Shown in pieces: positions 1,149-55,781 of a stretch of DNA of 64,000 nucleotides. The translations under genes and the position numbers were made by a program. Position 1 is the first letter of the stretch, and every line of letters starts with the position of its first letter. The notes under the pieces were generated by a model. The model had not been told where the DNA came from, ran no database searches, and saw only the letters and a program-made list of their open reading frames with translations. This stretch comes from Arbacia lixula (Eukaryota > Echinodermata > Echinoidea > Arbacioida > Arbaciidae). The stretch is taken from positions 12,763,207 through 12,827,206 of the forward strand of contig OZ022591.1 of NCBI GenBank assembly GCA_963669155.1, given 5' to 3'.

Positions 1149-1297
1149 GCTAACCAGCAGCATTCTGTGCGGACACCTCTACAAGTGGCCGCACACCAGG
1201 GCCACCTAAATGTGATCAAAGAGCTCATGAAGTACCGGCCTTCTCTGGAGGTCACCGACGCCGACGGGGACACCGCATTCCTCTACGCCGCCTACGG
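1149..1297 (+). CDS. Ankyrin-kinase gene, exon 1 of window
   Basis: The exon follows TTTGGCAG and ends before GTAAGT, carrying 49 codons plus two bases (phase 2 out). It encodes one ankyrin repeat (RTPLQVAAHQGHLNVIKELM) and the start of the next (DADGDTAFLYAAY). The reading frame is fixed by a clean join to the next exon, where the split codon gives Gly and the string AAYGNKPDIIEYL, a Mind bomb-like context. Earlier exons are outside the window. Confidence 0.85.
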
Positions 1298-4200
1298 GTA
1301 AGTTGCAACACCTCTTCTCTCTTAGTCTGGCTTTCAGACTCGTGGACATTTCTGGTCCAAAACAAAAAATTGAGTCTAATACTCTAGTAACCTTGGTCAC
1401 TGCATGCTTGAGCGAGCAAGCAGTGTGATGCATATTTGTTCATCACTAGAGCACACACGGGCCGTAGAGTGGCTGGGTGGGGAAACAAAATTCAGGCTGC
1501 TGATGCTGGGGCCTGTTGCATAAAAATTACCATTGATGGTAACTTTGCTACCAATGGTTACTACTATGGAAACCTCGAATTTGATCAGATGTCGAGCGAT
1601 GTTACCATGGTAGTTACCATCGATGGTAGAGTTACCATTAATGGTAAATTTTATGCAACAGGGCCCTGGTCTAAAAATCCTGTAGTAAACGTGTCGATGA
1701 TTTATGGATTGAATACCTTATTCCTACTGATAGAAACAAGCCGGACATCATTGAGTACCTGATTAGCTGCCGTTGCAATGTCCGCGCTGTCAACAAACAG
1801 AGAAGAAGTGGTCTGCACATAGCAGCGCGACGAGGTCATGTCGAGTGTGTGAGGATCCTCCTTGAGAAGGGAGTCAACTGCAATCTACAGGTAAGGCATG
1901 GGAAGAGTGGTCCATTACTACGTTGGATTGCCCATCTGTCCGTCCGTCCCCCAATTGGTTTATGGAATATCTTGAGATTTGCTTCAAACTTTGTAATTTA
2001 TGAAACAAATGATCCGTGTATTAATTACGGTTAAATCGCACTGAAGTCAAAGGTCAATGAACTGTGCCTAGAATGTGCATCCAGAGACCATTTCCGCATT
2101 CAATTAGGATTTAATCGCACTGAAGTCAAAGGTCAATGAACTGTGCCTAGAATGTGCATCCAGAGACCATTTCCGCATTCAATTATGATTAAATCGCACT
2201 GAAGTGAAAGGTCAATGAACTGTGCTAAAAGTGTGCATCCAGAAACCATTTTCACATTTATCTTAAGAATCACTACAGGATCACTACATAAAATGATCTG
2301 AACAATTTCAGTTTCTGTCATGAATTTTATCACCATCACCATTATCAACGTCATCATTACAATAATAATGATCATATTTATTATTATTTTCGCCACAATC
2401 ATCAGAATTACAATGATGATGATGATAGTCATCATTTCTATAATTGTTGTCATCCTAATCACTATTTATCTCTCTTTTTTTTAATCTATTTATTTATTTA
2501 TCAACTTACTCCTCAGGATAAGGCTGGAGACCTGGCGCTCCACGACGCCATTCAGAAGGACATGCGTGAGGTCATCACGTGCCTGGTGCAGTGGAAGCGT
2601 GCCGATCTAACCATCCGCAACAACAAAGGTCTGTCAGTCCTGCATTACGCTGCACTCCGAGGGAACGCACAGTAAGTTAACCCATTCTTTACCGGGCTCT
2701 TTTTTCACCCAGATCCTAAGCAACATGACTCCTGCATAATCCGCCGTTTGTACAATACACAACAGGCTAAGAATAAACTTCAGTTTCCTTTTATGGCATA
2801 ATTAACCCATTTTTTTACTGAGCCCGCATGTATATATATATATATATATATACATATGCAGCCTGGCCTTTCTCCACTCAAATCCCTAGCAGCGCGATTC
2901 CCACGTTATCTGCTGTACGTACAATAAACTTCAGGTTCTGAATGAATGTGAAATGCCTCGTCGGGTCCAGTTAACTCACTCTCTTTGGTTATTGCAGTTC
3001 CATGGCAAATTTTGACATCCTTCCTGGAACTGGGCTCACAAAGCCAGAAAATCTAACCATGAGCAATGGGTTAAAAATCAATGTAGAGTTATATACAAGG
3101 GCCCTGTCTTTAAAGATAATCCGTCCCTTTGACAAACATGTGGAAACTTCATGAAAGTTTGCACATATTTAGCACTTATCTTTGGGATACCAAATGTGAA
3201 ATTTTAAGGTCAGAGGTGCTATAAATCCCGTAGAATAAATGAAAATCTAACTTGTTTTCACTGAGATTTGACTATTTTTGTGTTATGAAAAAACGAAAGC
3301 TCGATCAATTATCGAAGGTTATTTCCTCAAAACCGAATATTGCGCTTTGTCAATTCCAGGGAAAGGTTATATAGCCATTCTCTCTCAAATGATGACAAAG
3401 TCAGGGAACTTTCAGCATTAGGTCTGCAAAAGGAATGGGCTACCTTTAATATATAAGATTTCAACTTGACTTGCAATTGATATCAATCGTAAACATAACT
3501 GTAGATATAGAAATAAGGGATTGGACTTGCAATTGATTCAGATTAAATGCAATTCTTTATAAGACAGGGGCTTCATTTGAATCAAGAATATATCTCAGGC
3601 TAGGAAACAATGAAAATGAAAAAAAAATGGATGTGGTGGATATAAATCATCTAATAGACCATGCAGCCTGCATTCCTGAAATGTTTCCGTGTGATTTTCT
3701 GCAGTGCTACAGAGTGCCTGGTCACTCAAGCACGACATCTGGTCGATACACGAAAGGACAACGGTCAAACACCTCTCCACATCGCGGCTAGCAACAACTT
3801 CAAAGAGGTGGCCAGACTGCTGGTTCACAAGGTGAGATTGTAACTAAGCCTGAGTCATATTCGAATCGAGTCGAATTTTCAGAAACCGGTGTTCGATGGC
3901 TTTGTGCCAATCGGACATCGAAGCATCGACAGCACATTGACAAATTGTGTACAACGGATAGCGGAGCACAAACGCTAGCGGTCGTGTACATTTTGCTTAT
4001 TACATGACGTCATTCAGCCACTGCCAAAAGCCAATTTACGAATGAAAATATAGTAAGCATACGCAGTGCAAGCCTTCCATTTCCCCACACGGTATTCCAC
4101 CCAAAGAAGTGTGCAATTCTCCATCACCTCATACCAAAATCGACGTAGAATTTCATTTTCCTATATTTTATATGAATTATGAAAGGTATTCTCAGAGAAT

Positions 4201-7200
4201 CTATTTTCTCACTGATACCGCACACGTTAGCAAATTTCAATTACTTCTTGCTTTTCCGTCAAAATCTTACGAATTAGCGTCAATATGGCATCGAGTTCGT
4301 TGGAATCTGTAGAGTCTATTGCAACATGCACAAAGTCAATCGGCTTCCATGTTTCGGACAACGTGACCGGATATCGTTATCACTATCGATGCTTCTGCAC
4401 ACAGTCCGAAGGCATTATTTTGGCGACCACGTGGTCATGACGTGATCTACGCGATGCACCAATCAGTGGTCTCCGGATTGGTGTGCGGAGACCTTGATCC
4501 GTTGTACACAGTCTATGGACAATTGTTCCTTGTGGAGTTGCGTAGTACAGTATATATAATAGTGAACGAATCGAAGACAAGTATGTAGTAGCTGCTTGAT
4601 CATCGAGCGACCAGTTCGTTCTCTTGATGCGTTACCTGCAAAACTCACAAAAGAGAGTAGGAACCAAGTAAGCAAATTAAAATTGTGGAAATATGAAAAT
4701 AAATTGTGTATAACAGGACTATCAAACAAAAGATTTTATGTTTTCTTGTCAATTTGGTAATTTCGTCGATGCATCAAATTCATCAAAACAAAATCGGAGT
4801 TCGACGTCTTTGATCGAACACGGGCTTAATAATCGATTCGACTCAGGCTTAATTGTAACTGCTATTGCAACAGCTAGAGTACTGAAAGCTCATTGGCTGT
4901 TTCTATGGTATTTACATGTGTTGTAAGTTAAAATAATTGAATATCAGGCAATGACAGCTCCAGAGATTATAAGTGACATATGAAAGAATTGTAAATCGCT
5001 TTACCATTATCACTACAATTGCAACCACAGGAACTTCAATATTCTAAACGTATTTCCTTTTCTGCTAGTACGTATAGTTACAATTGTTATATGAAACTTA
5101 CAATAATTGAAAGTCTGTGTTTAGCATGGTCCATAGACATTGCCAGTGAGAAATTCATTGTGTGCTTCTGTACCACACAAAAGTTTTACCAAAATTGAAT
5201 GAATATTAAAGAAGCAAAGGCTATTTGAAATTTAACCACACCTTTAACCCCTTCGCTCTAAAGTTTTAGACCAGCGCTTACAGCTTTAAACGAGATTATT
5301 TTGGGTTACCCAGCCACTGAACATGTGCACAGTGGGTGTCAGGCTATTGATAAATAAAGGTAGAATATCAATGGTAACTGGTTGCTCGTGAGCATTGCCT
5401 TTGTTTGTTCACTGGACAGTTTGGATTGTAACCAAAAGGTGCCGCCAGTGCATGCAACGTGTAATATGGTACAGATATTTCCTTCAGAGACAGATAAACA
5501 ACCTGTAGTAAAATCATCCTCAAACAACATTTCTCCAAAGAATTTCCACAAATATGATCTTGAAATGTAGCTAAACAGTTCAACTTTGCTCACAATTCAA
5601 CCGCATTATGATGAAGTACTTTAAACAAGTTGACATTGGTATGTTTCTTGCAAACGGGGCCCCGTTTTTGAGAAGAACACTTAGGAACCGGGTATACCTA
5701 GTTGCCATAGTAAATGGATTGATTGAGAACCCCATTTTCGATGTCATAAGGTGAGGTAAAATTGCACTTACATGTACTTGCCCATAAAAAATACAGAGAC
5801 ATAAGCAACCACAACATCACAGCTTCTCTCTAATCTTTTCAGGTTTGCAGATTTCAAAAACTTACATCTGTTGTTGAGCTTTGCCGATTCTCCTCAAATG
5901 TGTGCTAATCTGTTTTTCTTCTTTCTCTGACAAGAACATTTTGTTTGAGTAAACTACCACTTGAAATGAATTATGACCATTATAATTATTTGATTCTATG
6001 TTCATTAATATAGTCAATTAGAGGCACAAATAAAAGAAGAGGGAGGTGCTAATTGATTTTTTTTCTTTCCACAGGGGAAATGCGCGGTGAACGTATTTGA
6101 CAACCAGAAGCATACGCCGCTGTTGATTGCTGTGGCAGGGGGGCACGTTGAGATCATGGAACTGCTGATCGAAGCAGGGGCTGATGTGAATGCCAGTGAT
6201 GTGGATGGCGACACCTGCCTGCACATGGCTGTCATAAGGTTCAAGCATAACCCCTCTGGAGTAGAAGAGGAAGCTCTGCACCAGGTGAGGCTATAGTCCT
6301 TGTCATGCTGCATATTCATTCCAAGCTGGGTTCTTCCCGAAACAAAAACAAGGATAATATCTCATAGTAATGGTTTAATAGGATGGGCAATTAAGCAGCA
6401 AAGTGTGGAATTGGTACTTTGAATCATGGAATCACATTTTGAACCAGCATGGGTGATTGGAACATCATTTTTAGATGGTTCTCTTCCTCTCAGTGATGTG
6501 TTTGCTACAAAATGGGATGTTTCAAACATAAATAAGGATAGGTTTTCACTTTTCCTCAGAATATTTGTAAAGCTACAACCTTGAGATTTCATACATGTTT
6601 TCTTTCGGATATACTCTTATTATAATTCAATATATATTAAGCATAAGAAACATAGTAACAAATACAATCAAGAAAAATGACAAGTAAATTACAATTAAAA
6701 CAAACAAAAAAATCAAGCAAATTAATTACATAAATATATAGTACTAATGTGCAGCAAAACATAATCAAGGTACTTGAATAAAGAAATAGGGCAAAAATGA
6801 AGAAGAATCATATTTAAAATCTGCATTTATGAAAATGACTAGCCAATTTACCTTTCTTTTTGAAAATATATATTTCTTAATTTTTAAGTAGGGCTTGAAA
6901 GAGATCAAATGGAGGAATAATGTTCATCCATGCCCAGTTTCATGACTTTTGTTAAAGGGCTTCACTGAGACCTTTATGACTGACCTGTCCTCCCTTTCTC
7001 ACCTATCTGTGTTGCCATGGTTACCCAGCTCTGTGAGGGGACGGTAAAGAGCAGCTTGCTGGAGATCCCGGGGCTGAGTCTGCTGGTCTACCTCATCAAG
7101 AATGGGGCGAGGATCGACCTCCCCAACCACTCTGGCTGCACCCCTCTCCAGCTGATCCAGACGAAAAGCCTGGTCAAACAGCTGTCTAAGCTAGCGGCAA

Positions 7201-10200
7201 AGAGGCAGAAAAGGTAAGGCCGGTGGTGATAGCGGTGATGGTGGTATTGGTGATGGTGATGATTGTGGTGAGGGTGGAGGTGATGATTGTGGTGGTGGTG
7301 ATTGCGGTGGTGATAGTGATGATTGTGGTGATGGTGGAGGTAATGATTGTGGTGGTGGTGGTAGTGGTTGTGATTGCGGTGGTGATGATTGTGGTGGGGG
7401 TAGTGATGATGATGCTGGTGGTGGAGGTGATGATTGTGTTGCTGGTGGTGGTGGTGATGGTGGTGATTGCGGTGGTAGTGCTGTTGCTGTTGGTGGTAGT
7501 GGTGATGGTATTTTTTGTAATTGTGGTGGTGGTAGTGATGGTGGTGGTGGTGGTGGTGATGGTGGTGATTGCGGTGGTAGTGCTGGTGCTGTTGGTGGTA
7601 GTGGTGATGGTATTTTTTGTAATTGTGGTGGTGGTAGTGATGGTGGTGGTGGTGGTGGTGATGGTGGTGATTGCGGTGGTAGTGCTGGTGCTGTTGGTGG
7701 TAGTGGTGATGGTATTTGTTGTAATTGTGGTGGTGGTAGTGATGGTGATGGTGGTGGGGGAGGTGATGATTGTGTTGCTGGTGGTGATGGTGATTGTGGT
7801 AGTAGTGCTGGTGCTGTTGGTGGTAGTGGTGATGGTATTTGTTGTAATTGTGGTGGTGGTAGTGATGGTGATGGTGATGGTAGTGGTAAAAAAACATTAT
7901 ATCACAGAGTGAAGATTCTACAGTCTTTTTTTCACTTTCACTTCTCTCCTTTTCTCATTCTTCTGTATATTTTACTGAATTCCTCCTCTAGTCCTCCACA
8001 ATCTGTAACCCAGCCAGTAACCTCAGACGAATCCGTGAGCCGAGTTAATAATCTCCGGATCAGTAATCTTGATGAGAGTCCCCACCAGGAGCAACATCCA
8101 CAACATCAGCAGCAACAGCAACAAACACAACCACAACAACATCACAAACAACCTTGTGGCAGCAACGCTGCAGGAGGTAAGTAACATAACAAGCACCAAC
8201 AAAGAAATAAGCCTGGCAAGTTCTCCAGGCCCTCGCTTGGTCCGTCGGAACACAAAAAGGTACATTTTCTAGTGAGCACTCTCCTGGCTGCAGTTCTTCT
8301 CGGACCATCTTCAAATTTGGTATGAAGGTGTACTATGGTAAAGCGAAGAGGCTTATTGTTGTTGGTGGTGGCGCCCTCGCTTGGTCCGTCTTTGTACACA
8401 AAAAGGTTCTTTTTTCAGGGTCTGCTTGTGCGCACGATTCTGTAAGCATTTTTCAACAGATTTTTTAAAATTTAGTTTGTAAATGTATCATAGTGAACTC
8501 TAGACACCTCTAAATTTTGGTGATGCTGCTCCCTATGTTCTGCCTTTTACAGGGTCAAAGGTCAACCTGATAAGTCTCAATTTGCAAAAATGCTTATTTT
8601 TCAATTACTTTATTGTTACCCAATAGATTTTATTCAAACATGCTGTATAGGTGTATGTGTGGTCATTCTACATGTAGGCCACATAAGTATTCAGTGATGG
8701 CGCCCTCAGTGTTCTGACTTGGTGCCATGTAACATTACTTGTATGTGATCTATCGGCCACATGTCATAACTATAAGCAAAACTAGAAGATAAAGTGAAGA
8801 TGCCTCTCATTTTTGGTGGGGGGGGGGGGGGGGGGGGGTTATATCGCAATGATGGATGTGCGGTGGGTTCGGGGGATACATGTGCTCGGCCGCGTGACCC
8901 GCCGAGCATTTCTAGTTATGTTGAGATTTGATTTTAAAAATGTGAGCCCCCAATCACATATATTTGGTGCTTGGTCCGGAATGGGTTAACCTCTGCTGTG
9001 CCAAGAAGAACCCTGCTCTGTCGTATCTGTGTGTGTAAATGGTGCAAAATGCTGGACCTCTTGCTCAAGTTAAGATTTTCTGGCTTTGTGAACCCTGAGT
9101 CAGTTAGGATGTCAACAGTTACCATAGAACTAAAGTATCAAAAGAGGTATGGCTGAATTGTATGAGGAATTGAAGTGTATTCGTAGGCTGTTGTCTATTT
9201 TCCCTACAGCAGATTTTGCGGGAGTCCCGCTGCTCAGTCTCTGAATGAAAAAAAGCCAATCTGCAATTATGTTGGCTCAATAAAGAATGGGTGAAGAAAG
9301 TCTTCATTTTTTTTCTTTCTTTCTCTCCTGTTACGTTCCACTGATTTGATCCTTTGATGTTTATGGCAATAAAGTGCAGAAATTGTCATGTCAGATACCA
9401 CATAACCTATCTTTCTCTTTGAATGGAAGATGTCATGTTGGGATTTTGAGGATGTCTGTGCGTGTATAAAATGTGTGTGAAAATACTCAATGGCACATAA
9501 AAAGTTGCATGTAAAGCAATCCTTACTAGTACCTCATTGTGTTTTATGGGGCAGAATGGAAATTTGAGGCGAAATACATACAAATATCAACTATTTATAC
9601 AGTCAATATTAAGAATGAACTTGTTTTTGATGCAGGTTTCGAAGGCGTACACAGAATCGAAGTATCAGAGTTGAAAATCACAGAGAAAATTGGACGCGGT
9701 AGTTACGGACAGGTTTCTAAAGGTCGCTGGCGGGGTACTACTGTAGCAATCAAGAGGATGAGCATTGAGGGCAGCAAACGATCTGATATCGAGAAGGAAG
9801 TTGATATTCATAAGTGAGTATTTCTAGTCATGTCAACTGCTGTAACTTTCTGCTAATTTTTCTTCAAGTCTTCTTATTTTTCTTTATTTCTATTTATCAG
9901 CATCTGGTTTTGTTAGTCCTGGGATTAATGCAGAAATATGAAAGAAGCAGAGAGCAAATGGACAAACGATAAGAAAGTGTATTTTTTTTTAATATATGAA
10001 TAAAAAATTAGCAATTCAAAAATTAGCAATCCAGCAGCAATGTTTCTGGACACATCTGTGATGCATTTGTGTTCCAGAATGTATGAACATGTATATGTCT
10101 ACATTTCTTGAAATATGCGTTGACTTAATGTCTCAACGAATACATACCTCAAAACTGTTTTCTCCCGTTCTTTATAGTATCAAGAACAAATTTGTCGTAA

Positions 10201-13200
10201 AAAACTTTAAATATCCAAAGAGATCCACAAATGGCAAGACTAGAAGAAGGGTGATGTTTTTACTATTTGTCTTTTCTTTACTTCTAAAATACCTCAAACT
10301 TTCACCAATCTGCTCCTGTGAATTAATGAAATAGTTATTTTGGTTTTGGTGCTTTGCCGATTCCTTGGGTAGACTAGGTTAAATGTTAATGTTTGCTCAC
10401 TGTAAATGTGTGATTCTTTCCGAAGCAGGGAGTTGCGTGAGCCTAAGCAGACATATTTGTAGCTCTCAAAATGGCAGCAATTAAAACAAATCAGATTGTT
10501 ATCATGGTAATGTACAAGAATATTAATAGCAATTTGCAAAAGATAACAATACCATTTAGCGCAAACCCATAGTCTTGAAGAGAAAAAAATGGGATTACCA
10601 TAGTTTGGGAATGTCTGCAATTTCGAGATTTAGTGATAATTTGGCATGTTTGTTGCTTTGAAAAATGATAACAAAAATACATGATACTTGTCACTGAATG
10701 ACAAAACTGGGTTCAGTGCAGAAATGTACCAATGTGCTCTCTCATATGATGCATTTGATGTGATTTGTTATAGTTGATCTCAAAAGTTGAAGCCCCAAGT
10801 CACATAATTGTGGTTCCAGGTCCCAAATGGGGTTATTTAAAGAAAGGACTGGTTCAAAATTAGTGACGATGTTTTGTTCAATTCCTTTCTCCTTTTCACC
10901 CTGTAAGAGGGTTCGATATCCTGATGGAATACAACCCCATTGTATTACTTAAAGTGTTACTTTTTTCGAAATAGTGTCCAAACAACGATTACTCTCAGGC
11001 CCTATTACTAAACCATTTCCCCGAATATCAGAGCAGTATATATGTTATTGACCGTTATATTCCACACTAATGTATTCCAGTTTGTTGATTGGTTCAGAGT
11101 GTATCACATGACCACAAATGGTTCGAAGAGCGAAAGAAGCTCAGAGGGATGAAAAAAGACTATTTTGTGACGCCATTAGAAATAGTCGCCCTTTTCCCTC
11201 TGTTCCGATATCAGTTCATCCAATGTAAATGCCCGACACGCAATATGTATGCGATATCTTTACTTCCAGCTGCTTTTTATTGTTTTAGCAGATAAATATG
11301 GGCCGCGCTCAGGGAAGTTTGTGGTGTTGTGGCCAAGGCGCAACGTGAATTTACGTTAGTTTGCTCAAGCCGCAGGAAATCCAGAACAAATTAATAGCTC
11401 CTCTAATGTTGTAAAGCTTAGAGTATGGACACTACCACAAGGTCCATGATAAGGATCCATGTAGTGAACGAACGAATATATTAACGATGGATATAAAACA
11501 AATATTTACATCTTTATTCGGGATCGGTGTGGAATCTATTGGTCAAAATAGTACCGCACGCCCTCTACTTCATCCAGGGAGCTAATAGATTCCACAAGAT
11601 TCCTCATGATCATGACTTTCTTGCGTACTATTTATGCTAGGGTGGTTAAATCTATGTCATGACTTCCAACCAATCAGGTAATAGGATTAATAGGATGAGG
11701 AAGGTGATATTTAATAGTGCACTCTTGCCATGGAAACATTAATGTTTTGGCCATTCTGCTCGACAGGCAAGCGATGCATCCCAACATTGTGCAGCTGATG
11801 GCGCTGGGCTACAGCGATATGAACGCCTATCTGGTCATGACCTATGTTAATGGCACCGACATGCAGACAGCCATCCTATCAGAGGTAAGGGCTTAATACA
11901 GCATTGGTGGTGTTTGTGGTGGTGGTGGTGTAATGGTGGTGCTTATAGTGGGGAAGTGGTGTTGGTGTAAAGATGGTGCTTATAGCTGTGTTGGTGGTTG
12001 TGGTGGTGATGGGGGATTGGTGTTTGGTGTAAAGGTGGTACTTATTGTGGTGGTTTTGGGGAGTGGTGTTGTTGTACAAGTGGTGCTTATAGTTGTGGTG
12101 GTAGGGAAGTGGTGTTCGTGTAAAGGTGGTGCTTATAGTTGTGGTTGTCGTATTGGGGATGGGAGAGTGGTGTTGGTGTAAAGGTGGTGCTTATTGTGGT
12201 GGTTTGGGGGAGTGGGGTTGTTGTACAAGTGGTGCTTATAGTTGTGATGGTGGTGGTAGGGAAGCGGTGTTGGTGTAAAGGTGGTGCTTATAGTTGTGGT
12301 TGTGGTAGTGGGGACGGGGAAATGGTGTTGGTGTAAAGGTGTTGCTTGTACCTGTGGTGGTTGTAGTTGTAGTGGAGGGGGAGTGGTGTTAATTTATAAT
12401 TGGTACCTCAAGTTGTGATGGTGGTTGTGGTGGCTGTGGTGATTATACTCATGGTGATCGCAGATGGGAAGATTTTTTTTTCAAGATTCTAGATTCAAGA
12501 TTAAATTTTTATTGTCTATATAAAAATACAGAAAATTGGCCTCCACTGGCAAGAAGGTACAGAAGAATTACAGAAAATTACAAAAAAACACACACAAAAA
12601 TAACAGTGCATTGGAACAAAAAAAATGTACAAAATACAGAAAATGTAGAAGGGAGAGAACCTCCCGAAAGTGTTATCGGTGAGTATAGTGTTACTTGTAA
12701 TAATAGTGAATGTTGTGGCATTGTTAGTGGTGCTCATTCAGAGATGATGAGTGTCCTTGCAGTGGTAATTGTACGGGTAATGGTGGTGGTTGCTTTACTG
12801 GAGGTTGCTGGTGATGAGCAATATTGTGGTTGTGGTAGTGGTAGTGACACAGGTGCATATGTGGTGATTGCAGATAAACATATATGTCGTTTGTGGTTAA
12901 AGATTGTAAAGTGGTGATGGTTGTGGTAGTGGTAAAGGTAATTTTATTGCTGGTTCCAGGGGGAAATTTTCTATATGCCTGTAGGTGAATGTCGTGGATT
13001 TGATGACCGCTACAGTGGTATTCATGGTCATTGGACTGTTGGATTGCAGATAAAATGTTCTTTATATTGTGGTGGTGGTTGTTGCACAGGGTGAAACAAA
13101 ATTGTTGCTTATTTAAAGAATTTAATGCTGTGCAGAAAGATAGTAAGAGAGACAAGGTGTATTCATACAAAAACAACTGTTGACACTTTTGAATCATTAT

Positions 13201-15394
13201 TAAAACTTAGTTACAACTTGAATGAAGCTGAAATTTACATATCATAATGTCAAATTTTTAGAAGCAGGGCTCGTGGCATTTCATTGATTATTATTCTTGT
13301 AATAATCCTATGAATATTTCATTAAATTTTCACTTTTGGACAAAGTTGGACCAACGAAACGTGTGTATCAGATCAGTCATTCAGAACACATCAACAGCCG
13401 TTGTGTATCACACCCGTCAATCCACTAGCAACTGCCTTCACAGTGTCATTACTAAGTCATGATGCTTCTGGCAGAAAAGACTTTGTGGGTTGTCAGGTGT
13501 GATGCCCTTTTTAAAGTTTTGACAAAAATGTCTCCTTGTCCAACACAGGACAAATGGGAGATAACCACTGTCCAGAAGTACCACATCGCTCGTGACGTTC
13601 TCTCAGCTCTGACGTATATGCACGCTAGCGGGCTGCTTCACCTTGACATCAAACCCAGCAACATTCTGGTACGAAATGGTGGCCCTCCTTTGAAATGAAA
13701 TGTACCCTAGGTTTTATTAGATTTTAAAAAAAGGGGATTAAATTTATCCTAGGTTAAAATCCCTAAAAGGGGGATTACATTTACCAGGACACTTAAATTT
13801 ATGAAAGTGGTAGAAAATGTTTTCCTACATCAAGAAAAGCCAATGAGGGATTAAATTTATATTAGGTTTAAATTCAGAAAAGAGGGATTTAATTTATCCT
13901 AGGTTAAAATTCTTAACAATGGAATTATGTTTACTCGGTTGAAAATCCCTAAAAGTGTATTAAATATACCTGAGGTTTGAATTCAGGAAGGGGGTATTAA
14001 ATTTATCCTCCAAACCAGGACTGAATTTACCCTAGGTCCAAGACCTCAAGTGAAGGGCACTCAATTCAACTCATCCACTCCTTGTGAATTGTTTTGATTC
14101 TGAGATGAAATTAATAAACAAAATAAATCTTAATCGATAAAGAATTATTTAATGCCACTTTACATGAAGTTGCAAAATGAATCAATAGCACTTCTTGCAT
14201 TGATATTTGAAAAGAGGGTTTTAATGCAGAAATCATTAGTCCCTTAACTTAATAGCTTTTTCTTCCATTTCAGAAAAGCATCATTCAGGTTTGGTGTTTC
14301 GAGAACAGGTGCTAGATAATGAATTGTTGGCCAAGTGTAAATGCGCATTTCATGTTATAGTACAGCTATCACTGCAAGCTAGCTCCCTATAGGAGCTGTG
14401 CATCTCTTACCAGTATATGTTGTTTTGTGAATTTTCTGATTTGTGATGTATCAATTAGTATGCCTGTGTTTTTGGCCTGGGTTTGCTCACAAAACTAAAT
14501 GCTTGTGAAATGGTCAGGGTTGTCTGTAACTATTAACTCTATAACTCTTGGGCTGATACATGATGGATTTTTCTCATACACTTTGTTCTCACATCATGCA
14601 GATAATGCTAGATAAGGAATCCTTAGACGTTTTGTTTTTGGTTGACTCTCCTTCAGTAACGAGTAACTGATACCTTGGGTTCATACGTGATAAATTTTCT
14701 CATTTAAATTGTTCTCCCAACATGCAGATAGTGAAAGATAATGAATCGTTTTACTGTTTGGGGGGTCGATTCTCCTTCAGTAATAGTAACTGAAACATTG
14801 AGCTCATATGTGATAGATTTCCCCATCCAATTTGTCCTCTTATCATGCAGCAAGTGCTAGATAATTAATAGTTTTCTTTTTTTTGTTGGTCGACTCTCCC
14901 TGAGTAGAAAGGTAACTGTAAAACCTTGGGCTGATATCTCTCCATTTCCCCATCACCTTTGTTCTCCCGTCCTGCAGCTTGAGAAGGTCACCTTCAAGCC
15001 ATACCTATGTGACATGGGCCTGTCCCACGTGAAGCGGCGGGCCAGCATGCTGCTGTCCAGCCGCATCGCCCACGCCCGTGGCACGCCCATGTACATGCCC
15101 CCGGAGATGCACAAAAGCAGCAGCAGCATCAGCATCACAGGCGCCCAGGACATCTGGTCCACCGCCTGCACCTTCATCGAGCTATTCGGCGAGATACCGG
15201 TGCACTCTCCAACCATGACGATGTGGGGACTGGTGAAGAGGTTCACACGCGGGCAACTGAAGCCGGAGTCTTTGAACAAACTCGATCCCCAGTTACAGAC
15301 CATTTTAGAGCCATGTTTTCAGGAAGACCCGAAAGGGAGACCGAGCGCGAACGAGCTGTTGGATAGGTTTGAGGAATTGTGCGAGGCTTCGTGA
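1149..15394 (+). CDS. Mind bomb-like ankyrin repeat protein with C-terminal kinase domain (5'-partial, 11 exons visible)
   Basis: Eleven exons (1149-1297, 1734-1890, 2517-2671, 3705-3831, 6075-6284, 7029-7213, 7992-8176, 9636-9813, 11767-11884, 13549-13668, 14978-15394) have GT/AG borders and join in phase to 2001 nt, 666 codons plus TGA. Visible residues 1-327 are ankyrin repeats resembling the Mind bomb array, with family-like strings such as TPLQVAAHQGH, DGDTAFLYAAYGN and LVDTRKDNGQTPLHIAA. Residues 328-390 are a Gln/His-rich linker. Residues about 400-660 are a kinase domain: GRGSYGQV loop, VAIK Lys429, HLDIKPSN with Asp521 and Asn526, DMG Asp540, PPE at 569-571. Mind bomb is an E3 ligase that drives Notch ligand endocytosis; its RING fingers normally follow the ankyrins, and none are seen here. 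The N-terminal MIB/HERC2 and ZZ domains, if present, lie upstream of the window. The kinase looks catalytically competent; its substrate is unknown. Exon structure is firm and the Mind bomb relation is likely, by inspection only. Confidence 0.88.
1507..1667. mobile_element. Small palindromic element in intron 1
   Basis: About 160 bp with inverted ends (GGGGCCTGTTGCATAAAA and TTTTATGCAACAGGGCCC) and an interior of repeated TTACCAT/ATGGTAA words. A diverged relative is at 21645-21790. It is a MITE-like sequence inside the intron of the ankyrin-kinase gene. Confidence 0.6.
1734..1890 (+). CDS. Ankyrin-kinase gene, exon 2 of window
   Basis: The acceptor is ...CTGATAG and the donor is GTAAGG. The exon encodes NKPDIIEYLISCRC then a full repeat core SGLHIAARRGHVECVRILLEKG, so it completes one ankyrin repeat and adds another. 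It ends in phase 0 at CAG. Confidence 0.88.
2025..2262. repeat. 79-bp tandem repeat, three copies, in intron 2
   Basis: Three near-identical units (AAATCGCACTGAAGT... ...CCATTTCCGCATTCAATTA) start near 2031, 2110 and 2189, exactly 79 bp apart. The third is the most diverged. Confidence 0.85.
2517..2671 (+). CDS. Ankyrin-kinase gene, exon 3 of window
   Basis: The acceptor is ACTCCTCAG and the donor is GTAAGT. The exon encodes DKAGDLALHDAIQKDMREVI followed by a second repeat beginning NNKGLSVLHYAALRGN. The Mind bomb family has the comparable motifs GDTPLHDAI and LLHHAALKGN at this place in its array. It ends in phase 2; the split codon with exon 4 gives His. Confidence 0.88.
2830..2852. repeat. 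(TA)n microsatellite
   Basis: About 11 TA dinucleotides in intron 3, with nothing coding around them. Confidence 0.9.
3110..3449. mobile_element. TTAA-bounded element, family C, 340-bp copy
   Basis: TTAA ends with AAGATAATCCGTCCCTTT at the left and AAAGGAATGGGCTACCTT at the right. Shared internal words with 739-911 (AACTTCATGAAAGTTTG and TTGTCAATTCCAGGGAA) show common descent. It lies in intron 3. Confidence 0.65.
3705..3831 (+). CDS. Ankyrin-kinase gene, exon 4 of window
   Basis: The acceptor is TTTTCTGCAG and the donor is GTGAGA. The exon encodes ATECLVTQARHLVDTRKDNG and the repeat core QTPLHIAASNNFKEVARLLV. The ARxLVDxxKxDG segment is one of the clearest resemblances to Mind bomb ankyrins. 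It ends in phase 0. Confidence 0.88.
3832..6074 (+). other. Intron 4 of the ankyrin-kinase gene
   Basis: A 2.2-kb intron. Short open frames on both strands show no recognisable similarity. No repeats stand out and no regulatory element is claimed. Confidence 0.7.
6075..6284 (+). CDS. Ankyrin-kinase gene, exon 5 of window
   Basis: The acceptor is TTTCCACAG and the donor is GTGAGG; the exon is 70 codons, phase 0 on both sides. It encodes GKCAVNVFDNQKHTPLLIAV, then AGGHVEIMELLIEAGADVNA and DVDGDTCLHMAV, two successive ankyrin repeats, and ends in a more polar stretch rich in Glu. Confidence 0.9.
6285..7028 (+). other. Intron 5 of the ankyrin-kinase gene
   Basis: AT-rich intron with no recognisable feature beyond A-rich stretches near 6600-6730. 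Confidence 0.7.
7029..7213 (+). CDS. Ankyrin-kinase gene, exon 6 of window (last ankyrin repeat)
   Basis: The acceptor is GTTACCCAG and the donor is GTAAGG. The exon encodes LSLLVYLIKNGARIDLPNHS and GCTPLQLIQTKSLVKQLSKL, the closing repeat of the array. Mind bomb has an analogous IACYLAQEGADINYANHKGK segment just before its RING fingers. Here a basic tail (AAKRQKR) leads instead to a linker exon. Phase 2 out. Confidence 0.87.
7219..7888. repeat. GGT/GAT minisatellite filling intron 6
   Basis: Nearly pure G/T/A sequence of GGT, GAT, AGT and GTT triplets starting five bases after the exon 6 donor. A higher-order unit is visible: GATTGCGGTGGTAGTGCTG begins near 7465, 7567 and 7669, a 102-bp period, with a diverged fourth near 7792. 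Both strands lack stops over long stretches, which creates false Val/Met-rich and His-rich reading frames. Confidence 0.92.
7992..8176 (+). CDS. Ankyrin-kinase gene, exon 7 of window (Gln/His-rich linker)
   Basis: The acceptor is CCTCCTCTAG and the donor is GTAAGT. The exon restores the frame with a Ser split codon and encodes about 61 residues of low complexity, Ser/Pro first and then dense in Gln and His (many CAA, CAG and CAT codons). No fold is recognised. It reads as a flexible tether between the ankyrin array and the kinase. Confidence rests mainly on the phase match on both sides. Confidence 0.78.
8177..9635 (+). other. Intron 7 of the ankyrin-kinase gene
   Basis: Contains a short duplicated phrase (CCCTCGCTTGGTCCGTC near 8230 and 8372, about 142 bp apart) and a G homopolymer at 8818-8838. 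No exon is recognised. Confidence 0.65.
8818..8838. repeat. Poly-G run
   Basis: About 21 consecutive G residues in intron 7. Confidence 0.9.
9636..9813 (+). CDS. Ankyrin-kinase gene, exon 8 of window (kinase N-lobe)
   Basis: The acceptor is TTTTTGATGCAG and the donor is GTGAGT. The exon encodes the start of the kinase N-lobe: ELKITEKIGRGSYGQV glycine loop, WRGTTVAIK with the catalytic Lys (visible residue 429), and the alpha-C region DIEKEVDIH containing a candidate salt-bridge Glu (442 or 444). Phase 2 out. Confidence 0.92.
9814..11766 (+). other. Intron 8 of the ankyrin-kinase gene
   Basis: A 1.95-kb AT-rich intron between two kinase exons that join in phase. No feature recognised. Confidence 0.7.
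11767..11884 (+). CDS. Ankyrin-kinase gene, exon 9 of window (kinase hinge region)
   Basis: The acceptor is CTGCTCGACAG and the donor is GTAAGG. The exon encodes QAMHPNIVQLMALGYS followed by AYLVMTYVNGTDMQTAILSE, matching kinase strand beta-4, beta-5, hinge and alpha-D. The HPNIVQL motif is typical of the family. Phase 0 out. Confidence 0.92.
11905..12460. repeat. G/T-rich minisatellite in intron 9
   Basis: Irregular repeats of a 45-60 bp phrase built from GGTGTTGGTGTAAAGGTGG and TGCTTATAGTTGTGGTGG. It begins about 20 bases after the exon 9 donor, much like the intron 6 array. Confidence 0.88.
13240..13440. repeat. Dispersed repeat fragment in intron 9
   Basis: Resembles 21885-22100: both contain TTTTTAGAAGC, CATTTCAT, TTGTAATAATC and then GGACAAA with similar spacing. 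Unclassified repeat. Confidence 0.5.
13549..13668 (+). CDS. Ankyrin-kinase gene, exon 10 of window (catalytic loop)
   Basis: The acceptor is TCCAACACAG and the donor is GTACGA; the exon is exactly 40 codons. It encodes alpha-E (YHIARDVLSALTYMHASGLL) and the catalytic loop HLDIKPSNIL. The loop has Leu where most kinases have Arg (HRD), a variant found in some active kinases such as Mos. Catalytic Asp521 and Asn526 are present. Confidence 0.92.
13706..14040. repeat. Degenerate minisatellite in intron 10
   Basis: Repeated variants of GGGATTAAATTTATCCTAGG followed by TTAAAATCCCTAAAA, roughly 35-60 bp apart, six or more copies with decay. Confidence 0.75.
14500..14977 (+). repeat. Tandem repeat containing copies of the 3' splice site of the last exon
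   Basis: Units of about 125 bp each end in a pyrimidine tract and ATGCAG or CTGCAG: AG at 14600-14601, 14726-14727, 14849-14850 and 14976-14977. Only the last is followed by kinase coding sequence. The first three are followed by versions of TGCTAGATAA with early stops. Confidence 0.82.
14978..15394 (+). CDS. Ankyrin-kinase gene, terminal exon (kinase C-lobe and stop)
   Basis: The acceptor is CGTCCTGCAG. The exon encodes YLCDMGLS (DMG in place of DFG, metal-binding Asp kept), an activation segment ending GTPMYMPPEM, DIWSTACTFIELFGEIPVHS with the structural Asp-x-Trp, then PCFQEDPKGRPSANELLDRF with the conserved Arg near the end of the C-lobe. TGA occupies 15392-15394, only about 15 codons after the domain, so the kinase is the C-terminus. 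This exon is more GC-rich than its surroundings. Confidence 0.93.
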   Translation, partial: LEKVTFKPYLCDMGLSHVKRRASMLLSSRIAHARGTPMYMPPEMHKSSSSISITGAQDIWSTACTFIELFGEIPVHSPTMTMWGLVKRFTRGQLKPESLNKLDPQLQTILEPCFQEDPKGRPSANELLDRFEELCEAS

Positions 15395-53891: not shown

Positions 53892-55781
53892 GTACGTTGC
53901 ATCTTCAACTTTTCTCTCCTGTCTCCTAACCTCAATAGCTGATCCTTCTATTTTTGTCCTCGCTGACTTCTTCTCACTTGTTGCATATTTTCTGATGTTA
54001 TTTTCTTTAACTTTATATAATTCTTTTTCTATGTATCCTTAGGCCTAAGTTCCTATCTTTCGTTCACATATATGATTTACACATGTCAGTGTTATATTCC
54101 TGTACTTATGATTTTTGTATCCTTGTTTTATTTCTCCAGACTGCCAAGCACTTGACAGAACGCAAGAGGAGGGCACGAATCAACGACAGCCTTCTCCAGC
54201 TCAAGAGCATGGTCTTCCCTGCCGTGCGAAAAGATGTAAGTATTCCCAATCATTTCAAACTCAACTGTACATCTCCTCAATATCTACCTATTGCAAAATA
54301 CCATGCAATTCTTACAGCTATGTGGGATACATCACTCTTTAGCTCTTTGCCTATATCGATCTTGCTCGAACTTGTGCACTTGCCATCCATAGATTTTCAA
54401 ATTTGGCGCTTTCTCTTTGGCCGCGAGATCCATAGGCCACCCAGCCGTGATTACGCGGGAAGTTACCCATCCTTTTTGTCTCTCTCAAGACGTATCTTTG
54501 TCCTTCTAAAGAATCTTCTCTTCATCCAGTTATTGATTAATTAAATCCACAGCTCGCTTTTTGTTTGCTATGGTGCATCTCTCTAGTGTGTGAGAGACGG
54601 GAGAGCAAAACGTGCGAACATTTGTTTGTTCGAAGCTAACAGCAACCGCAGTTTACCCGGTTGAAGCCAATACACAATTGAATAGAAGAAGGGGGGGGGG
54701 GGGGGGCAACTTTGGTGGGAGCTATTGATGCAGGACCGTGGGAAAGTCGGAGCGAGGGGTAATCCACGGTGCTTACCTCGCCCGCCGTCCTAACCGCAGC
54801 TGGGCGGTCGAGGCTGGGCTGCCCCGCTTCGCTTGGTGCGTGGGTCTTGACTCGACTCTCCCATGGTCTTGTTTACCGAAGCATTTTTTTTTTCGGCGTG
54901 TGGTGGTTTTCGAGTTGCCACTTACCATCTTAAACAGTCTGGCACCAAAAGTGACCTTTCTCGTTCCTAGTATTTATTTCGATTAAGATTTAAAGTGTGA
55001 TCCGCATTCATGTTTCTTGTTGAATCGCAATACTTATGAATTTTCTCCTTTTTTTTCTTCTCATCTCTAGATCACTCGCCACCCTAAGATGGAGAAAGCC
55101 GACGTCTTGGAGATGACCGTTCGTTATCTGAAAGACATCCAGAACCCGACTTCTGCTGGCAGTGAGACGACGGGCGTGACCAACTACCACGCTGGCTTTA
55201 CCGAATGCCTGAGCGAGGTGTCTACCTTCATGGCCTCCTGTGAGAGCATTGACATCGAGACCCGACTTCGTCTCCTGGGACACCTCGCTGATCGTTGCAG
55301 CACCATCAACGAGCCCGAGCAGAAACCCGATGTATCCCGCCTGCAAGTGCCGACGCCGCAACAGTCACCGTGCACGACACCAACTCCGCCTCCCGCTCCT
55401 GCATCGCGAGTTGCGGCGCCTCCCACCGTTCCAGCAGCTCAGATTGTTACCCCCGCCATGTCATCACCGCAGCAGTTCGCCGCTGCGCCCGGCGGTATGG
55501 TCCTCCTCCTCCAAGCCATGCAGCAGCAGACCCCACCCACGGCACCAACAACGCAGGTCATCTCCGTCCGAGTTCCCTGCAACGACGGCGGTGTCCTCAC
55601 CCCGCCTCAGTCGCCTATCTCACCCGAGCCAGTCATGACGACGACTCCCACCACCCGACTGACCCCGTCCCCAGTCGACCTCAAGCCGTCCAAGGCTGCG
55701 CTGGACATCCACAGCCACCGCATGTCACCGTACCAGAAGCCGGTGCGAGCCGCCGAGAAGCAGGTGTGGCGACCATGGTAG
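53838..55781 (+). CDS. hes: Hes family bHLH-Orange transcriptional repressor (complete, 3 exons)
   Basis: Exons 53838-53891, 54140-54235 and 55071-55781 join in phase to 286 codons plus TAG. Residues about 19-75 are the bHLH (ERKRRARINDSLLQLKSMVF, then RHPKMEKADVLEMTVRYLKD), about 87-128 the Orange domain (YHAGFTECLSEVSTFM, RLRLLGHLADRC), followed by a Pro/Thr/Gln-rich region and WRPW at the very C-terminus. Hes proteins are nuclear repressors that recruit Groucho through WRPW and act downstream of Notch. Intron positions before the basic region and after RKD match vertebrate Hes1; the third Hes1 intron is absent. The basic region reads KHLTERKRRARIN, with His where Hes proteins have Pro. The start at 53838 has A at -3 and follows an in-frame stop. 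In sea urchins, HesC is a candidate identity, but the paralogue cannot be settled here. Confidence 0.95.
54140..54235 (+). CDS. hes: Hes exon 2 (basic region and helix 1)
   Basis: Between TTTCTCCAG and GTAAGT; 32 codons containing the basic region and helix 1, ending at RKD. Phase 0 on both sides. Confidence 0.95.
54690..54706. repeat. Poly-G in Hes intron 2
   Basis: About 17 G residues. Confidence 0.9.
54737..54744 (+). promoter_or_regulatory. Su(H)/RBPJ site in Hes intron 2
   Basis: An exact CGTGGGAA about 0.5 kb inside the 835-bp intron. Its flanks (GACCGTGGGAAAGT) are identical to those at 47652-47666. Confidence 0.45.
55071..55781 (+). CDS. hes: Hes exon 3 (helix 2, Orange, WRPW)
   Basis: Starts after TCATCTCTAG with ITRHPKMEKADVLEMTVRYL and encodes the remainder of the protein, ending WRPW and TAG. 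Codon use is GC-rich compared with surrounding DNA. Confidence 0.96.
   Translation: MTRHPKMEKADVLEMTVRYLKDIQNPTSAGSETTGVTNYHAGFTECLSEVSTFMASCESIDIETRLRLLGHLADRCSTINEPEQKPDVSRLQVPTPQQSPCTTPTPPPAPASRVAAPPTVPAAQIVTPAMSSPQQFAAAPGGMVLLLQAMQQQTPPTAPTTQVISVRVPCNDGGVLTPPQSPISPEPVMTTTPTTRLTPSPVDLKPSKAALDIHSHRMSPYQKPVRAAEKQVWRPW

Follow-up and report, generated by a model that had tools for sequence, protein, structure and literature searches.

A predicted Mind bomb-type gene with kinase exons in the place of the RING fingers in the sea urchin Arbacia lixula

Introduction

Ankyrin repeats and a kinase are found together in one protein in TNNI3K, RIPK4 and ANKK1. The ankyrins lie ahead of the kinase in TNNI3K, and the kinase comes first in RIPK4 and ANKK1. 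MIB_HERC2, ZZ and SH3_15 domains are not known from any of the three. The gene analysed here is like these proteins in combining ankyrins with a kinase and follows the order of TNNI3K, which is opposite to that of RIPK4 and ANKK1, but unlike any of them it also encodes MIB_HERC2, ZZ and SH3_15.

The closest likeness is to the E3 ligases MIB1 and MIB2, which have MIB_HERC2-ZZ-MIB_HERC2, SH3_15 repeats and ankyrins in the same order as our gene. In addition, intron positions of its MIB part are shared with RING-type Mind bomb genes of the same genome. The difference lies at the C terminus, where our gene has a kinase and a stop codon in the position expected for the RING fingers, and a RING was not found at the locus in the searches given below. 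The available portions of two papers list Mib-herc2, ANK, RING and ZZ as the diagnostic Mib domains (PMC2770060) and MIB_HERC2 with six partners, given there by number and not by name, in animal-specific combinations (PMC2394772). A MIB-kinase protein is not mentioned in the available portion of PMC10970066, and the terms 'mind bomb', 'MIB' and 'ankyrin' are absent from the available main text of the oyster kinome paper (PMC4883820). Our literature search found no description of a MIB-kinase architecture; predicted animal proteins so built may already be on record.

Results

Exons of the window

The window, by which we mean the whole analysed stretch of 64,000 nucleotides, corresponds to C16:12763207-12827206 of the 607 Mb assembly. 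An earlier note on this DNA had joined eleven exons without a frame break into ankyrins, a linker and a kinase, and this gene structure was confirmed. The exons at 1149-15394 form a single open frame of 666 codons followed by TGA, all ten introns between them are of the GT-AG type, and the two alternative frames of the joined exons contain 34 and 33 stops. In the joined product the ankyrins, which are of the Mind bomb type, are followed by a Gln/His-rich linker and then by a kinase domain that ends at its own stop codon. The exons are listed below with the evidence for each.

1149..1297, + strand: exon A, first ankyrin exon, the gene extending upstream of the window (AG/GT borders, open frame)
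1734..1890, + strand: exon B, ankyrins (splice borders, open frame; intron positions compared)
2517..2671, + strand: exon C, ankyrins (splice borders, open frame; 155-nt exon also in models G2, G3, G4, M1 and M2)
3705..3831, + strand: exon D, ankyrins (splice borders, open frame; 127-nt exon also in models G2, G4, M1 and M2)
6075..6284, + strand: exon E, ankyrins (splice borders, open frame; paralogue models)
7029..7213, + strand: exon F, last ankyrin region (splice borders, open frame; MIB1 ankyrin alignment; paralogue models)
7992..8176, + strand: exon G, Gln/His-rich linker (splice borders, open frame; linker sequence varies among paralogue models)
9636..9813, + strand: exon H, kinase N-lobe with GRGSYG loop, VAIK lysine and, by position, helix-C glutamate (splice borders, Pfam, kinase alignment)
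11767..11884, + strand: exon I, kinase hinge region (splice borders, kinase alignment)
13549..13668, + strand: exon J, kinase catalytic loop HLDIKPSN (splice borders, kinase alignment)
14978..15394, + strand: exon K, DMG motif, activation segment ending in PPE, C-lobe and stop codon (splice borders, Pfam, kinase alignment)

With Pfam profiles, Ank_2 (5.7e-48) and Pkinase (PF00069, 6.7e-45, profile positions 3-259 of 263) were detected in the window protein. The ankyrins aligned colinearly with those of human MIB1 (8v0e) in a single stretch (query 3-320, 195 bits). Ankyrin-1/2 entries had a higher total through the summing of several stretches, and their best single stretch among the matches listed (two chains) was 112 bits. 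GGT-rich tandem repeats are present inside two introns of the gene, at window 7222-7887 and 11951-12347, and give rise to long spurious open frames there.

Upstream half of the gene

The interval 1149-15394 covers less than the whole gene, which begins some 10 kb ahead of the window. Eight further exons, on the same strand, occupy C16:12752955-12759942, a region that runs from about 10.3 to about 3.3 kb ahead of window base 1. They encode MIB_HERC2-ZZ-MIB_HERC2-SH3_15 in this order, colinear with human MIB1, and the upstream half matched human MIB1 (4xi6) in a single stretch (residues 4-359, 264 bits, 1.6e-77). MIB_HERC2 (PF06701, 1e-41) was detected as two stretches flanking ZZ (PF00569, 4.6e-9), and SH3_15 (PF18346, 1.6e-20) passed in one stretch, as compared to two in the paralogue G2. 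Because of this upstream module the Mind bomb reading is firmer than it would be from the ankyrins alone.

The last SH3_15 exon found is followed by a donor in phase 1, which does not fit the phase 0 of ankyrin exon A, and therefore at least one linker exon between the two halves is missing from our model. The predicted product most likely has at least some 1,060 residues, in the order MIB_HERC2-ZZ-MIB_HERC2-SH3_15-ankyrins-variable linker-Ser/Thr-type kinase. Just before the window, an intron of the gene holds a tandem array of 157-bp units with 96% matches among copies (L022 9154-9987, on C16). Near-identical 157-bp units were also seen near C16:19446200-19447480, in an apparently different intron of the paralogue G3.

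Paralogues in the genome

Searching the whole genome with PF06701 gave 22 matches, 20 of them above the curated cut-off. Fourteen fell in seven loci with two matches each, seven were on C18 and one was on C7. The seven double-MIB_HERC2 loci are as follows.

G1, the window gene, C16: kinase-type
G2, C16:14.14-14.16 Mb: kinase-type paralogue
G3, C16:19.44-19.46 Mb: kinase-type paralogue
G4, C16:20.24-20.26 Mb: kinase-type paralogue
M1, C16:12.94-12.97 Mb: RING-type
M2, C16:0.20-0.23 Mb: RING-type
M3, C11:10.60-10.63 Mb: MIB1 orthologue

The kinase query gave at least 39 matches in the genome (96 candidates scored), with 14 inside four of the seven loci and none at M1, M2 or M3. The paralogues were modelled with a spliced aligner that used the window protein as query and rewarded good splice sites, with no intron positions supplied. 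In these alignments the assembled G1 protein was 42, 38 and 41% identical to G2, G3 and G4 over 1,035, 1,030 and 1,028 residues, respectively. The domain order was the same, on one strand, at all four loci. Pfam detected MIB_HERC2, SH3_15, ankyrins and Pkinase in all three paralogue models, and ZZ in the G2 and G3 models but not in that of G4. In G2, G3 and G4 the kinase alignment was followed by a stop codon after 1, 1 and 21 residues, respectively. The low-complexity linker (exon G) was unlike in sequence among the models, which have small doubtful exons in this region.

Introns were counted as shared when they had the same phase and lay within 4 residues. The intron positions of the G1 model recurred in G2 (17 of 17), G3 (15 of 17) and G4 (15 of 17). 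All four introns at or inside the kinase part were common to the four genes, and the linker-to-kinase intron was in the same place and phase at each locus. M1-M3 were aligned over the MIB part only, which leaves 13 positions; M1 shared 9 of them with G1, M2 shared 11, and M3 shared 5, its model being poor and reaching only the second ankyrin exon within the 30 kb aligned. Three paralogues with the same order and nearly all introns are not expected by chance, and the four predicted genes of one build look like a real gene family rather than a prediction error.

The seven MIB_HERC2 matches on C18 lie within 180 kb (C18:19868229-20047011), each without the close second match typical of Mind bomb loci, and are possibly a separate tandem family.

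Searches for RING fingers

A strict and a CGH-type RING pattern had no match on either strand of the window, nor in the 158 kb holding G1-G4, where the gene strand was read in unspliced frames; because of this reading, a RING split by an intron would escape the pattern search. The CGH-type pattern was found twice in M1 and once in M2, and no match to the RING patterns was seen in 30 kb of M3. A genome-wide search with zf-C3HC4_3 (PF13920) gave at least 98 matches, with M1 and M2 included (150 of 164 candidates scored); none of the 98 matches listed was inside G1-G4. Three others were on C11, on the same strand as M3 and about 220 kb downstream of it, and this triplet may be the end of M3's MIB1 gene. 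Kinase exons are present at four of the seven double-MIB_HERC2 loci and RINGs at two, while M3 has the distant downstream triplet.

The earlier proposal of a kinase where the Mind bomb RINGs should be was thus supported by the Pkinase domain with its stop codon and by the lack of RING matches at G1-G4, in the patterns and among the listed PF13920 matches.

Kinase domain

The kinase domains of G2-G4 were 44-46% identical to that of the window gene. In all four genes the catalytic residues K40, E55, D132 (HxD), N137 and D151 (DxG) were invariant, as was the Glu of PPE; the catalytic roles were assigned by position and motif, that of the helix-C Glu by position. The catalytic loop reads HLDIKPxN, with HLD in the place of HRD, which makes this a non-RD kinase, and the DFG position reads DMG or DLG.

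Among the best relatives of a four-kinase profile in solved structures were the kinase domains of NEK7, CTR1, B-Raf and TAK1, at about 116-135 bits (NEK7 134.9, CTR1 134.6, NEK1 117, B-Raf 116.9 and TAK1 116.5 bits). These scores fall across several kinase groups and do not place the kinase in any one of them, TKL or other. The window kinase by itself scored 94 bits with NEK7, and there was no close relative among the solved structures.

The top-scoring kinase-query matches outside the MIB loci were at C12:3836423 and C5:27424978 (35 and 36% identity), and a further match was at C21:791528 (33% identity). The first two were rejected as Mind bomb-kinase genes, being single-frame kinases with no MIB or ankyrin part by eye. 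They (L010, L013) have nearly the same long single-frame kinase sequence, with HQDLKPEN and DLGLAK; at C5:27424978 the frame runs out of the common sequence and stops sooner, still within the kinase domain. A candidate fifth gene at C19:18694109 (L044 465-959) was also discarded, as by eye it apparently holds only a diverged duplicate of the first kinase exon of G2, and further kinase exons were not seen within 4 kb.

Relationships and origin

Over 209 residues of MIB_HERC2-ZZ-MIB_HERC2, the identity between M3 and human MIB1 was 82%. The MIB_HERC2-ZZ part of G1 was 45% identical to human MIB1 (218 residues) and equally close to RING-type M1 (49%, 231 residues) and kinase-type G2 (49%, 230 residues). 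Free-alignment trees of eight sequences, in which the M3 and human MIB1 rows held the MIB_HERC2-ZZ part only and the M3 row had a poorly modelled tail, separated the kinase genes from the others by a branch that was weakly supported (47/47 and 63/80). A tree from a G1-anchored alignment left the four kinase genes ungrouped, with their grouping unrejected (p-AU 0.262). We treated this alignment as biased, in view of the short branch for the window row and the masking of poorly matching stretches. A whole-genome ankyrin search (218 matches) was set aside as evidence of kinship since it was swamped by other ankyrin genes. The Mind bomb kinship claimed for the repeats agrees with their colinearity with the MIB1 ankyrins, but support in the eight-sequence trees is weak.

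The four kinase genes, M1 and M2 are all on C16 and the MIB1 orthologue M3 is on C11. This distribution points to descent of the kinase family from a MIB2-side copy on C16. That the kinase introns are shared speaks for a single fusion event and later duplication. The mitochondrial COX1 stretch of the assembly, on the 15.7 kb contig C590, was by eye best read with genetic code 9 (AAA = Asn, ATA = Ile, AGA = Ser), which echinoderms and flatworms use, and had 93% identity to a generic COX1 sequence, in keeping with an echinoderm.

Discussion

On the strength of these sequence comparisons, we think it probable that the 3' half of a single predicted gene, a MIB2-side Mind bomb copy, lies in the window. 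In this copy a set of kinase exons would have taken the place of the C-terminal RING module on one occasion, and duplication of the fused MIB-kinase gene would then have given at least four genes on the same chromosome. The MIB and kinase halves would be on one transcript and the kinase would be an active non-RD kinase. As in known Mind bombs, the MIB half would pick and gather cargo, either Notch-ligand tails or MIB2-type immune partners, and the kinase would phosphorylate cargo or partners in place of ubiquitinating. The available portion of PMC3979679 reports that in yeast two-hybrid assays with zebrafish Mib the N-terminal and ankyrin parts were the main binders and the RINGs were not, and that vertebrate Mib2 acts with TAK1, BCL10 and IKKgamma. 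From these data we infer that the window protein may bind MIB-type cargo and phosphorylate it or its partners, and our best reading is of a putative MIB-type substrate scaffold with a kinase replacing the E3 module.

It is very unlikely that two neighbours, a RING-less Mind bomb fragment and then a separate kinase gene, were wrongly joined. Such a join would agree with the low complexity and lack of sequence conservation of the linker exon at 7992-8176, but not with the recurrence of one order on one strand at four loci, with the linker-to-kinase intron always in the same place and phase. Moreover, read on past exon F, the frame meets a stop after one codon of intron, which leaves the ankyrin part no further C-terminal end of its own. 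The fusion could also be real and the kinase inactive; such a pseudokinase or scaffold would lack RINGs but still bind Mind bomb cargo, and so compete with the E3 forms. HLD for HRD and DMG or DLG for DFG make kinase activity uncertain, and the variable linker and the failure to find RINGs at G1-G4 (patterns on the gene strand; PF13920 matches listed) would also fit. Nevertheless we regard an inactive kinase as unlikely, as the catalytic Lys, Glu, both Asp and Asn and the PPE Glu are retained in all four copies although these differ from the window kinase at more than half of positions, which suggests selection on catalysis.

Somewhat doubtful, but to be kept in mind, is an active kinase fusion that works in innate immune or NF-kB signalling, like vertebrate MIB2, and not in the handling of Notch ligands. 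The action of vertebrate Mib2 with BCL10, IKKgamma and TAK1 (available portion of PMC3979679), the RAF, NEK and TAK1 kinases among the best solved relatives and the expansion to four copies are in line with it, whereas the spread of the profile scores over several kinase groups assigns the kinase to none of them.

An active kinase fused to a MIB2-side Mind bomb remains our preferred reading. A wider proposal, which we put forward tentatively, is that of an echinoderm kinase-Mind bomb family, in which the half of a Notch/NF-kB ubiquitin ligase that chooses substrates would have been recoupled to a kinase, and the same cargo might be ubiquitinated by RING paralogues or phosphorylated by kinase paralogues in one animal. 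If this is true, the E3-to-kinase swap separates what Mind bomb binds from what is done to the cargo, and provides a natural way to test whether cargo is chosen by the MIB half alone. With four kinase copies and RING copies together in one genome, the two forms could be compared in pairs.

A gene of the Hairy/Enhancer-of-split type, which is a Notch-target type, was also seen in the window at 54011-55778 (+ strand), some 39 kb away from the gene with the kinase exons. A partial bHLH (PF00010, 25 of 53 positions) lies in one open frame, with Hairy Orange (PF07527) and, by eye, a C-terminal WRPW in the next, the two frames presumably being split by an intron.
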